DNA from: Nitrososphaerota archaeon
GTDB lineage: Archaea > Thermoproteota > Nitrososphaeria > Nitrososphaerales > Gagatemarchaeaceae
Reading direction: 5' to 3'
Assembly: GCA_028866945.1 (NCBI GenBank)
Contig: JAGWHE010000008.1
Span: 1-39,881, forward strand
DNA: 39,881 nt
Shown: one piece after another, positions 27,383 to 31,177 of the stretch
How positions within the stretch are numbered: the first letter of the stretch is position 1
Layout: each line of letters opens with the position of its first letter
Program-made: the position numbers and the translations under genes
Notes under the pieces: model-generated
The model's input: only the letters and a program-made list of their open reading frames with translations
What the model was told of the DNA's origin: nothing
Databases searched by the model: none

Positions 27383-28678
27383 CTAGGCTGACTCGATTGC
27401 CCTTTGCCCCGCCAGGGCGTGCGGTTCCAGGACGGAGGAGAGCCCGTCGAGGGCGACTCGGACTGAGCCCAAGTCGAGCTTGGCCGAGTCTCTGCTCAGG
27501 TCCCCGCAGTATTTCGCCAACTCGGTCGCCCTCTCGTGCAGGAGCACCCAGGCGGCGTGCCTGTGGGGGAGAAGGTACTCCCTCGGGTACATCTGGAAGG
27601 ACGGCCCTGCCGTGAGGCCGGGGTGGCGGGGCCCGACGGGGAGCCGGGTGAGCTCCTTTCCGAGGGGCTTCAGGACATTCACCATGAGCGCGACTGCGCC
27701 ATCGCTGAGGGCCTTTTGCTCCGCCTCGGACGTCTCGGAGTGTGTGAAGAACCTCGAGAGGAGCTGGAGGGCGAGCTCGTAGCTGGCGTTGAAGAGGTCC
27801 GATACCCGCGCGGTTAGGGGGTCGGTTATCTGGGCCATGCCCCGGGCGTCTGGGGTGCGTCTGGCCGCTGCCGGGATCGAGGGGCGCGCAGGCTCGAAGT
27901 TCGTGTCGTCCTTCTTCATCGCGATGTATTCGCCCAAGACCTGGTAGAACTTCCCGAAGTGCGCGTTCTTCCAGTTACCGCGGGCCCCCTCCCCCTCGGT
28001 GATTATCGACTCTGTGGCACGGCCCGACGACTTCACGTCCGTGACCGCGACGAGCTCAGGCCACCCGAAGAACTCCTGGGTCGCCTGATGCCTCGGTGAG
28101 CCGACGAAAAGGCGCCGCTCGCCCAGCTTCTCCGCCATATGCACGAACCCCTGCTCGATCCCCCGGTAGAGGTGCCCTACGGTCGCGAAACCCTGCTGCT
28201 CGGGGACGATCCCGTCTCCGGCCGTGTTGGGCGCGGCCGCTGCGCCAGCCTCGAACCCCGGGGCGTCGTCGAGCTCGAACCTCTCTGGACGTTCGAGGTA
28301 GAGGAAGTGGCGGAGCGCCTTCTCGCCGAAAGGGAGGAGGGCGAGCTGGATGCCTGGGGCGAAGTACTTCGGGGGGTGAGGGAAGTTGGGGCGCCCGAAG
28401 AACGGGGCGGCCCCCACCGAAATCAGGAGGTTGTTGACCAGCGCGAGATGGAGCATCTCCTGGGCGGCCACCCCTGAGACGACCCGGCCCCAGCGCTTGA
28501 CAGCAGCCAGCTGGTCGGGGGCAAGCCCTTCGTCCGGCCTGTCCTTCAGGGTGAAAGACGCGAAGAGGTACCCGCACATTATCATGTGCTCGAGCGCGGC
28601 GGCCTCAGAGAGCATGAAGATCAGCTCCTCCCTCGTCTCGATGAGTATGGGGCGCTCTTCTGGCGGACTCTCGGGCAC
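27383..28678 (-). CDS. Ferritin-like VioB/iminophenyl-pyruvate dimer synthase-domain protein
   Basis: A 431-residue protein whose first 230 residues look like the ferritin-like domain of VioB/RebD-type proteins (iminophenyl-pyruvate dimer synthase). E30 in ALEHMIMCGYLF and E74/H77 in AAQEMLHLALVNNLLISVGAAP provide an EXXH half-site, followed by GRPNFPHPPKYFAPGIQLALLPFGEKAL and YRGIEQGF. The second half is helical with no known motif. In bacteria such proteins couple oxidised amino acids in violacein-type pathways, but no amino-acid oxidase is nearby, so the substrate is unknown. GTG 28678 is about 27 bases from its TATA box. It stands alone. Confidence 0.8.
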   Translation of the reverse strand: MPESPPEERPILIETREELIFMLSEAAALEHMIMCGYLFASFTLKDRPDEGLAPDQLAAVKRWGRVVSGVAAQEMLHLALVNNLLISVGAAPFFGRPNFPHPPKYFAPGIQLALLPFGEKALRHFLYLERPERFELDDAPGFEAGAAAAPNTAGDGIVPEQQGFATVGHLYRGIEQGFVHMAEKLGERRLFVGSPRHQATQEFFGWPELVAVTDVKSSGRATESIITEGEGARGNWKNAHFGKFYQVLGEYIAMKKDDTNFEPARPSIPAAARRTPDARGMAQITDPLTARVSDLFNASYELALQLLSRFFTHSETSEAEQKALSDGAVALMVNVLKPLGKELTRLPVGPRHPGLTAGPSFQMYPREYLLPHRHAAWVLLHERATELAKYCGDLSRDSAKLDLGSVRVALDGLSSVLEPHALAGQRAIESA

Positions 28679-28801: not shown

Positions 28802-29014
28802 TCAGCGTGCGAAGATTATCTTGCCGCCCAGCCCGGCCTTCTCGGCGATCCTGGAGATCTCCTCCCTGAGGCGCTCCCTTTCCAGCTTCGCCTCGTCGAA
28901 GACGACCACTATCTTGTTGGTGATGGGGAGCTCCTTCACTTCGAGGACCCCCTCGACCTTCGAGAGGGGGCGCCTGAACACCGGGGAGCAGGCTATGCAG
29001 TCGACGGTCTGCAC
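28802..29014 (-). CDS. Small HMA-type metal-binding protein, start uncertain
   Basis: A copper-chaperone-like HMA domain: the metal loop VDCIACSPVFRRPLSKVEGV (CxxC) followed by LEVKELPITNKIVVVFDEAKL and a helix. The GTG at 29014 leaves only five residues before the first cysteine, too few for the first beta strand. That strand is present upstream in the same frame (DIAFTVQTVDC), so translation probably begins earlier, for example at CTG 29062 or ACG 29017, or by readthrough of the copA TGA 29080-29078, which is in the same frame with no other stop between. It probably delivers Cu(I) to CopA. Confidence 0.8.
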   Translation of the reverse strand: MQTVDCIACSPVFRRPLSKVEGVLEVKELPITNKIVVVFDEAKLERERLREEISRIAEKAGLGGKIIFAR

Positions 29015-29077
29015 CGTGAACGCGATGTCGCGCCGCCGATCGGCCCCCGCCTGCGCAGGCAGTTCGCTCCCCTCCCC

Positions 29078-31177
29078 TCACAGCTCGGGCTTGAACCGCC
29101 TCAGCGCGAGGGAGTTCGTCGTCACGCTGACTGAGGACAGGGCCATGGCGGCCGCGGCGAGTATAGGGTTGAGCAGCACTCCGGTGGCGACGTAGAGCAG
29201 GCCGGCTGCCACCGGAATCAGGGCGATGTTGTAGCCGAAGGCCCAGACCAGGTTCTGCCTCACCTTGCTCATGGTCCTTCGCGAGAGCTGGATCCCGGCC
29301 ACGACATCCCGCACGTCGTCCCGCATGAGCACCAGGCCGCCAGTCTCGATGGCTATGTCAGACCCCGAGCCCATGGCGATCCCGACGTCTGCCTGGGCGA
29401 GGGCGGGGGCGTCGTTGATGCCGTCGCCCACCATGGCGACGACCCTGTTGCCCTCCTTCTGCAGCTGCTTCACCACCGCAGCCTTCCCGTCGGGGAGGAC
29501 CTCCGCGAAGTACCTGTCAATACCCACCTGGCGCGCGATGGCGGCGGCGGTCTCTGCGTTGTCTCCGGTAAGCATCATGGGCTCCAGCTTCATCTCCTTC
29601 AGCTTCCTGATGGCGTCGGCCGCGTGTTCCTTGAGGGTGTCGGCGGCTGCGACTATCCCGGCCAGGCTGCCGTCGACGGCGAGGACCATGGCGGTCTTGC
29701 CGTCCTTCCTGAGGGCCGCAAGCCGTCGTGAGACATCGTCTGGGACCTTGACCTTGAAGGCCTCGAGCGCCTTCGCGTTGCCGAAGACGATGTCCTTCCC
29801 GTGGTATGAAGCCAGGACCCCCTGACCGGTGACCGACTGGAACGAGTCCGGGTCGGGCACTCCGTCCTCCCCAAGGTCACTTCGCGCCCTTTCGAGCACG
29901 GCAGCGGCCAGCGGGTGCTCGGACCGCTTCTCGGCGATCGCCGCCAACCTGATGACGTCCTTCTCACCGAGGGCCGAAAGCGAGACGACGTCGGTCACCG
30001 ACGGCTTCCCCCTGGTAAGCGTCCCGGTCTTGTCGAAGACTATGGTGTTGATCTTCTGCATGCGCTCGAGGTACTCCCCGCCCTTGATCAGGATCCCGTT
30101 CTCGGCCCCCTTGCCGGCGCCGGTGACCACCGCGGCCGGCGTCGCCAGTCCGAGCGCGCAGGGGCAGGCGATTATGAGCACTGCGACCGCAGTCGTGAAC
30201 CCGAACCCGAAGGATTCGCCTGCGACCAGGGTCCAGAACCCGAAGGACGCCAGGGCGACGGCGATAACCACCGGGACGAAGTACGCGGAGACCTTGTTCG
30301 CGAGCCTCTCGATGGGGCCTTTGCTGGCCTGGGCTTCCTCCACGACCCTGATGATCTTAGACAGGGTGGTGTCCGTCCCGACGCGGGTGGCCCGCATCTT
30401 CAGGGAGCCGGTGCCGTTGAGCGTCGCCCCGATAAGGCCGCTGGCCGGCTGCTTCTCCACGGGGATGCTCTCCCCTGTCACCATCTTCTCGTCGACCGAG
30501 GAGTGCCCCTCGACCACGGTCCCGTCGGTCGGGATCTTCTCGCCGGGCCTGACCAGAAGCAGGTCTCCCACCCCGACCTGGTCCAGGGGGACCTCCTCCT
30601 CTGAGCCGTCCGCCCGTATCCTCCTGGCGGCGGGCGGCTGAAGTGCGAGGAGCTTGCGCACCGATTCGCTCGCCCTCCCCCTGACGAACTCCTCGAGGAG
30701 CTTGCCCACGAGGATGAGCACTCTGATGAGGGCAGACGTGTCGAAGTACCACGCCCCGTTCGGGAGCTCGGCCGGGAAGACCACGTAGGCCGCGCTGTAG
30801 ACGTAGGCGGAGGACGTCCCCACCGCGATCAGGACGTCCATGTTGGACGCCCTCATCTTCAGCGCGTTCCAGGTACCCTGGTAGAACCTCCAACCTGCGA
30901 CGAACTGGATCGGGGTCGCAAGGGCCAGGAGGACCCAGCCTGTGCCGGCGAGAGACAGCCATGCGGTGGCCGGGACGTACGAGAGGATGAGGATGGGGAT
31001 GGAGAGTGCCACGCCGAGGGCGATGTTCCGCTTCAGCACCTTCAGCTGGCGTTCAGGCTCGGTGAAGGTCTTGAGGCAGGCCTCGCTGCAGAAGTAGTAG
31101 GTGGTCCCCCTGACGGTCGCGTGAAGGGATCCCTCCGACTCCTCGACGAACATGCCGCAGACCGGGTCGGTCGCCAA
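29078..31177 (-). CDS. copA: Copper-exporting P1B-type ATPase with N-terminal YHS domain
   Basis: A 699-residue Cu(I) efflux pump. Residues 1-42 form a YHS/TRASH-type domain (DPVCGMFVEES, YYFCSEACLKTF; C7, C30, C34) instead of the usual N-terminal HMA. Then come membrane helices, the actuator loop VTGESIPVEK, the transmembrane metal site ACPCALGLATP, phosphorylation motif DKTGTLTRG, SEHPLAAAVLERA, TGDNAETAAAIA and GDGINDAPALAQADVGIA. The YN and MALSSVSV residues of the last helices support copper specificity (P1B-1). TTG 31177 is the start. It is followed in frame by the small HMA protein. Confidence 0.95.
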   Translation of the reverse strand: MATDPVCGMFVEESEGSLHATVRGTTYYFCSEACLKTFTEPERQLKVLKRNIALGVALSIPILILSYVPATAWLSLAGTGWVLLALATPIQFVAGWRFYQGTWNALKMRASNMDVLIAVGTSSAYVYSAAYVVFPAELPNGAWYFDTSALIRVLILVGKLLEEFVRGRASESVRKLLALQPPAARRIRADGSEEEVPLDQVGVGDLLLVRPGEKIPTDGTVVEGHSSVDEKMVTGESIPVEKQPASGLIGATLNGTGSLKMRATRVGTDTTLSKIIRVVEEAQASKGPIERLANKVSAYFVPVVIAVALASFGFWTLVAGESFGFGFTTAVAVLIIACPCALGLATPAAVVTGAGKGAENGILIKGGEYLERMQKINTIVFDKTGTLTRGKPSVTDVVSLSALGEKDVIRLAAIAEKRSEHPLAAAVLERARSDLGEDGVPDPDSFQSVTGQGVLASYHGKDIVFGNAKALEAFKVKVPDDVSRRLAALRKDGKTAMVLAVDGSLAGIVAAADTLKEHAADAIRKLKEMKLEPMMLTGDNAETAAAIARQVGIDRYFAEVLPDGKAAVVKQLQKEGNRVVAMVGDGINDAPALAQADVGIAMGSGSDIAIETGGLVLMRDDVRDVVAGIQLSRRTMSKVRQNLVWAFGYNIALIPVAAGLLYVATGVLLNPILAAAAMALSSVSVTTNSLALRRFKPEL

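Follow-up and report, generated by a model that had tools for sequence, protein, structure and literature searches.

Positions 1 to 39,881 of contig JAGWHE010000008.1 (assembly GCA_028866945.1, a Nitrososphaerota archaeon), the whole stretch of DNA analyzed here and referred to as the window, encode on the minus strand the copper ATPase CopA and, 3' of copA, a small HMA-like protein. We propose that this protein is the product of a separate gene for a CopZ-like copper chaperone, probably translated from a near-cognate start codon of its own, CTG 29062. What the sequence shows directly is the gene and its conservation, where the CTG lies, and the match to a Shine-Dalgarno in front of it. The features involved are the following:

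28802-29062, minus strand: HMA (CopZ-like) gene, 86 codons plus TGA, counted from the CTG.
29060-29062, minus strand: proposed near-cognate start CTG; its first base is at +18 from the first base of the copA stop, and TTG (relative G027) or ATG (relative G008) stands at an equal distance.
29071-29075, minus strand: Shine-Dalgarno GGAGG in the intergenic gap, 8 nucleotides (nt) before the CTG; duplex with CACCUCCU, -10.6 kcal/mol.
29012-29026, minus strand: IAFTV, first-strand core of the HMA protein; its first four codons lie 5' of GTG 29014, F and T are kept in relatives, with synonymous changes, and the strand spans E10-17 in the structural model.
29012-29014, minus strand: GTG, the first standard start in the HMA frame; it has no Shine-Dalgarno (-1.5 kcal/mol) and would truncate strand 1.
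28988-28999, minus strand: CxxC metal-binding motif (C-I-A-C), with both Cys invariant in nine of nine sequences.
29078-31177, minus strand: copA, which encodes a P1B-1 copper ATPase whose N-terminal region carries a YHS domain; start TTG (31177), stop TGA.
29078-29080, minus strand: copA stop TGA; the CopA C-terminus is at an equal place in close relatives (RRFKPEL, RRFKPKL).
29079-29081, minus strand: GTG overlapping the copA stop (GTGA); it opens a 158-residue reading frame other than that of the HMA protein and hence is not the HMA start.

The copA product matches the Pfam profiles YHS (residues 3-43), E1-E2_ATPase and Hydrolase, and scores 608.4 bits against NCBIfam ATPase-IB1_Cu (cut-off 397). 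The signature of P1B-1 Cu+-ATPases has been described as CPC in transmembrane segment (TM) 6, YN(x)4P in TM7 and MxxSS in TM8 (PMC5552934). All of these motifs are present in the window's CopA: CPC at 338, NLVWAFGYNIALIP (pattern N(x)6YN(x)4P) at 642 and MALSS at 678. Comparison of this CopA with Pfam profiles gave no HMA match, in agreement with a preliminary description of the locus, which had pointed to a YHS domain and the lack of an N-terminal HMA. In close relatives, CopA ends at an equal place regardless of whether the stop is TGA or TAA. The same description had stated that the copA frame remains open past its stop, and this is indeed the case: 21 sense codons (29077-29015) lead up to GTG 29014, and the frame then continues to TGA 28804-28802. 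Translated in the copA frame, the region after the copA stop reads GEGSELPAQAGADRRRD, then IAFTVQTVDCIACSPVFRR..., and ends at that TGA.

We identified the downstream product by profile and by fold. The 74-residue HMA sequence scored 23.4 bits (E 7.8e-5) against Pfam HMA (22.7 bits in a second search), marginally under the cut-off of 24.8, and is therefore called HMA-like by profile and fold. It scored 19.3 bits against the NCBIfam CopZ model (chaper_CopZ_Bs), far short of the cut-off of 91, so that we describe it as working like CopZ and not as a member of that model. A profile built from the HMA protein and eight relatives matched metal-binding domains of copper ATPases in PDB (best E 5.8e-14) and Enterococcus hirae CopZ (1cpz, E 2e-6). 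An AlphaFold2 (AF2) model of the CTG-initiated product has its strands and helices arranged E-H-E-E-H-E, as in an HMA domain, and strand 1 covers residues 10-17; the model's mean predicted local distance difference test (pLDDT) score of 74.8 denotes middling confidence, and the input alignment contained only two sequences. The best Foldseek matches of the model were MerP, RAN1 and CopA domains, and the CopZ structures 2qif, 1cpz and 1k0v were also listed (E 1e-3 to 1e-2). Searching the draft genome (G000) with Pfam HMA returned two places, of which the window's HMA is the only one with a CxxC motif. The second HMA-like domain (L088, G000:C64:59943-60107, plus strand) has GMSDPGKAQ at the motif site.

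Purifying selection acts on the coding sequence of the HMA protein. The ratio of nonsynonymous to synonymous substitution rates (dN/dS) is 0.14 against G027 (0.188/1.318), 0.32 against G018 and 0.34 against G008, although these ratios are rough, several pairs having dS values close to 1 or higher. All nine family members in the alignment have strand 1, with its F3 invariant. Moreover, at the four codons 5' of GTG 29014, F and T persist in four genomes while third bases vary. Strand 1 is thus very likely translated, which brings the question of where translation begins to the region upstream of it. The preliminary description had placed the first strand upstream of the only standard start of the HMA frame. 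The relative position holds, but the start is not the only one, since GTG 29014 is merely the first and three more GTG codons (28981, 28939 and 28909) lie deeper in the frame.

Two near-cognate codons, CTG 29062 and ACG 29017, had been put forward as possible starts. Both are present at these positions, but they fared differently. The four closest relatives by HMA identity are G027 (70%), G024 (65%), G018 (60%) and G008 (55%), and in three of them the likely HMA start is at +18 (TTG in G027, ATG in G008) or +19 (ATG in G018) from the copA stop, the place that CTG 29062 occupies in the window. The CTG also has the strongest Shine-Dalgarno of all window starts tested, with a duplex energy of -10.6 kcal/mol; among 26 other gene starts, the best reaches -9.7. 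These 26 comparison genes were hand-picked from the list of open reading frames (ORFs); several real-looking genes were omitted and some longest-ORF starts are surely wrong. Internal controls equaled or exceeded the CTG in 3 of 302 in-frame CTG codons, 4 of 408 ATG, GTG or TTG codons and 107 of 6747 codons of any kind. At the equivalent site, the duplex energy is -9.9 in G027 and -10.5 in G018. ACG 29017, on the other hand, lies inside strand 1 and has a weak match (-4.8 kcal/mol). No standard start precedes the conserved coding sequence, and a ribosome-binding site stands at fitting spacing before CTG 29062. This codon is the best candidate start of the HMA gene, and it is there, we infer, that initiation would occur.

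The anti-Shine-Dalgarno sequence used in these calculations, CACCTCCTTA, was read from four 16S genes of genus relatives, because the G000 assembly gave no 16S match. Shine-Dalgarno use in the window is modest overall (median -4.75 over the 26 longest-ORF starts against -3.7 over the 408 internal ATG, GTG or TTG codons), and so it is no rule for all of its genes. One of the 16S matches in relatives (G003:C22:83272-85569) spans 2298 bases, compared with a model of 1478 positions, which suggests an insertion or intron in the ribosomal RNA gene.

A search for CopA over 31 genomes of the genus found 30 places in 25 genomes. An HMA gene lies within 700 bases downstream in 17 of the 30; none was found within that distance for the other 13, of which at least three belong to loci that end too early to tell. 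CopA relatives without an HMA gene within these 700 bases include L063, L065, L066 and L068-L070 (G002, G004, G025, G009, G026 and G023), so an adjacent chaperone gene is not universal in the genus. The copA-chaperone pairs take two forms: in one the genes overlap by 4 bases (TTGA/ATGA), in the other a short gap carries its own Shine-Dalgarno. The overlap (ATGA/TTGA) is a possible arrangement in pairs L052-L055 (G021, G015, G012 and G019), where a GGAGG able to serve the HMA gene sits within the copA codons for R-R-F. Relative to copA, the HMA frame is the same in three of the 17 pairs (window, G027 and G008), in phase 1 in three and in phase 2 in 11. Two sets of pairs (L059/L073 and L061/L062) are seemingly identical at the junction, which brings the number of independent pairs nearer to 15 than to 17. 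The in-frame arrangement is no commoner than expected by chance. In all 16 pairs besides that of the window, an ATG, GTG or TTG occurs ahead of strand 1 and after the nearest upstream in-frame stop, and a further CopA-adjacent HMA gene, in G030, starts with TTG.

The frame that stays open from the copA stop into the HMA protein had led the preliminary description to suggest that some CopA might be made with a C-terminal HMA by readthrough of the TGA. The frame is likewise open in G027 and G008, yet a change of frame separates the two genes in the remaining 14 of the 17 pairs. The preliminary description had named two findings in relatives that would refute its proposal, a standard HMA start further upstream or a frame change between the genes, and both are observed. 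The three in-frame pairs end copA with TGA, TGA and TAA, the linker residues differ between relatives (GEGSELPAQAGADRRRD versus VGGIELSTTIPKGKPQE), and each of the 16 other pairs has a standard start. Across the order, a survey of 400 genomes returned 85 HMA places in 70 of them, 9 within long ORFs and 76 standing alone. All nine long HMA-ATPase ORFs carry their HMA close to the N-terminus and before DKTGT, and no C-terminal HMA fusion was found among them. A gene expressed by stop-codon readthrough would be expected to keep both frame and linker across the stop in relatives, and neither is conserved here. We rejected a conserved readthrough fusion on the grounds of frame, linker, stop identity and the fusion survey, and consider readthrough to be very improbable as the source of the HMA protein; rare, accidental readthrough may occur in the window species. 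Two other readings retain standard codons. Starting at GTG 29014, the first standard start of the HMA frame, would give a product of 70 residues that lacks most of strand 1 (IAFT would be lost), a strand that is found in every aligned family member and that forms a strand in the model. We rejected this start on strand-1 conservation and the missing Shine-Dalgarno, and there is very little chance that it is the true one. Less credible still is a start at GTG 29081, overlapping the copA stop, followed by a frameshift in the linker into the HMA frame. Four relatives (G015, G012, G019 and G021) do have a start codon at the equivalent overlap (TTGA/ATGA), but in the window the frame of this GTG is not that of the HMA protein. 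The linkers of the window and G027 are equal in length, which argues against a gained or lost base, and G027 also has a GTGA, while TTG and GTG starts are available to it in the HMA frame. The frameshift was rejected on linker length.

An alternative that keeps the same start position is that 29062 is really a T, or that strains vary; the gene would then begin with an ordinary TTG, like that of G027, and the C would be an assembly error or a minority variant. A single substitution separates the two codons, G027 has TTG there with an equal linker length, and the window is one of the 73 contigs that make up the draft genome. However, a second HMA gene of another family, in G220, also has CTG aligned with a TTG. 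Errors of substitution in a consensus are expected to be rare at any one chosen base. We regard this alternative as unlikely. Several further observations nevertheless weigh against initiation at CTG 29062. Although G024 is as close as the other relatives (65% HMA and 78% CopA identity), its candidate starts are GTG at +5 and ATG at +29, in another frame, with none at +18. In G027 a GTG at +3 is possible, though its Shine-Dalgarno is poor (-2.7), and in G008 the Shine-Dalgarno is weak (-3.8). CTG codons are common (307 of 7527, or 4.1%), such that the chance of meeting it at one given place is about 1 in 25, and one T-to-C base error would turn an ordinary TTG into the CTG of the window. The roughness of the dN/dS ratios counts on the same side. 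So do statements in the literature: a 2021 review describes non-canonical events in archaea as demonstrated only for elongation and termination, and aIF1 as promoting discrimination against non-canonical starts (PMC8211752), and in Haloferax gaps of about 20 nt are reported almost to abolish coupling (PMC10666635).

The missing standard start, rather than the shared frame, is the unusual part of the locus. Of the order's 76 stand-alone HMA places, only three lack an ATG, GTG or TTG in the interval from the nearest upstream in-frame stop to the start of the match, namely those of the window, G220 and G233; for a few of the 76 this test is looser, as the match begins inside the domain, and the match in G043 holds a TAA. 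The G220 gene, which belongs to another family (L093, G220:C214:6323-6487, minus strand, plus 18 bases before), has a CTG at the alignment position where G229, from the same genus, starts with TTG. Shortly upstream, the sequence is AT-rich and resembles a promoter, and this gene could therefore be leaderless. In G233, a genome listed at 8% contamination, the HMA gene (L107, G233:C105:2516-2686, minus strand) has no ATG, GTG, TTG or CTG from the in-frame TAA to strand 1, the codons being TAA AAA TTA GAA AAA GCA.

How might a weak start codon sustain expression of the chaperone? The strong Shine-Dalgarno, which lies in the gap of 15 nt that separates the copA stop from CTG 29062, would place a ribosome at that codon. 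Ribosomes finishing copA may also feed the HMA gene through termination-reinitiation across this gap, and in such coupled translation a strong ribosome-binding site could help a weak start codon. The HMA protein most likely takes up Cu(I) via its CxxC motif and passes it to the YHS-type CopA. CTG initiation, coupling to copA and copper transfer are all steps that we infer from the sequence. The preliminary description had further supposed that an added or separate HMA would complete a CopA that has none of its own; this is plausible in the form of a predicted separate chaperone. In Haloferax, reinitiation at 13/14-nt gaps is reported to be retained but substantially below the level of the native overlap, within a range of 40 to 60% (PMC10666635). 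CUG is described as a poor start in E. coli in vitro (PMC11497404). According to a ribosome profiling (Ribo-seq) study of Methanosarcina mazei, 5% of 314 unannotated small ORFs have a CTG start (PMC11456600), and the idea of CTG starts in archaea is thus not new, having already been reported for small ORFs.

A gene caller limited to ATG, GTG and TTG would truncate or miss the window's HMA protein. If confirmed, CTG 29062 would offer a defined natural site at which the use of CUG as a start by an archaeal ribosome could be measured, close relatives having TTG or ATG instead. A more speculative idea, which we hold only tentatively, is that archaea of this order keep CTG as a real, selected start for small metal chaperones. 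The weak codon would be offset by the strong Shine-Dalgarno here, or possibly by a leaderless 5' end in G220, and would set the output of chaperone relative to CopA. If true, CUG starts in archaea would extend from the small ORFs known from Ribo-seq to a conserved gene whose function can be predicted.

As for the surroundings of the HMA gene, a ferritin-like protein (PF12902) is encoded 3' of it on the same strand (27383-28678, minus); a VioB match there reached 70.7 of 1250 bits, far under the cut-off. A search of the copA-HMA junction for Rfam RNA elements (E up to 1) gave one chance-level match only, sX5, with 16.4 of 50 bits and E 0.91, on the other strand.

Among known systems, a readthrough fusion would resemble Archaeoglobus fulgidus CopA, one metal-binding domain of which is C-terminal. 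That ATPase has two metal-binding domains (PMC11970713), and the long HMA ORFs found in the order differ from it in showing no C-terminal HMA fusion. The window's HMA protein is like CopZ of E. hirae and Bacillus subtilis, encoded together with copA, as judged by its profile and Foldseek matches to CopZ. In both of these species copZ precedes copA, whereas the window's HMA gene is downstream of copA and has a putative CTG start. The CopZ motif is given as MxCxxC (PMC7558416), compared with VDCIAC in the window. E. coli CopZ, which is derived from copA by programmed frameshifting, likewise ties a free HMA protein to the translation of copA; in E. coli, however, the HMA comes from copA itself by recoding (PMC7558416), while in the window it would come from a separate downstream gene with its own start. 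The CTG-initiated small ORFs of M. mazei are also small archaeal proteins, but they are reported as unannotated (PMC11456600), whereas the HMA gene of the window is conserved, encodes a predicted chaperone and has relatives with standard starts. Finally, the termination-reinitiation pairs of Haloferax volcanii are, like copA and the HMA gene, same-strand neighbors with a Shine-Dalgarno at the junction (PMC10666635). Some cousins of the window pair have a 4-nt overlap, while the window pair itself differs from those of H. volcanii in its 15-nt gap and its proposed near-cognate start.
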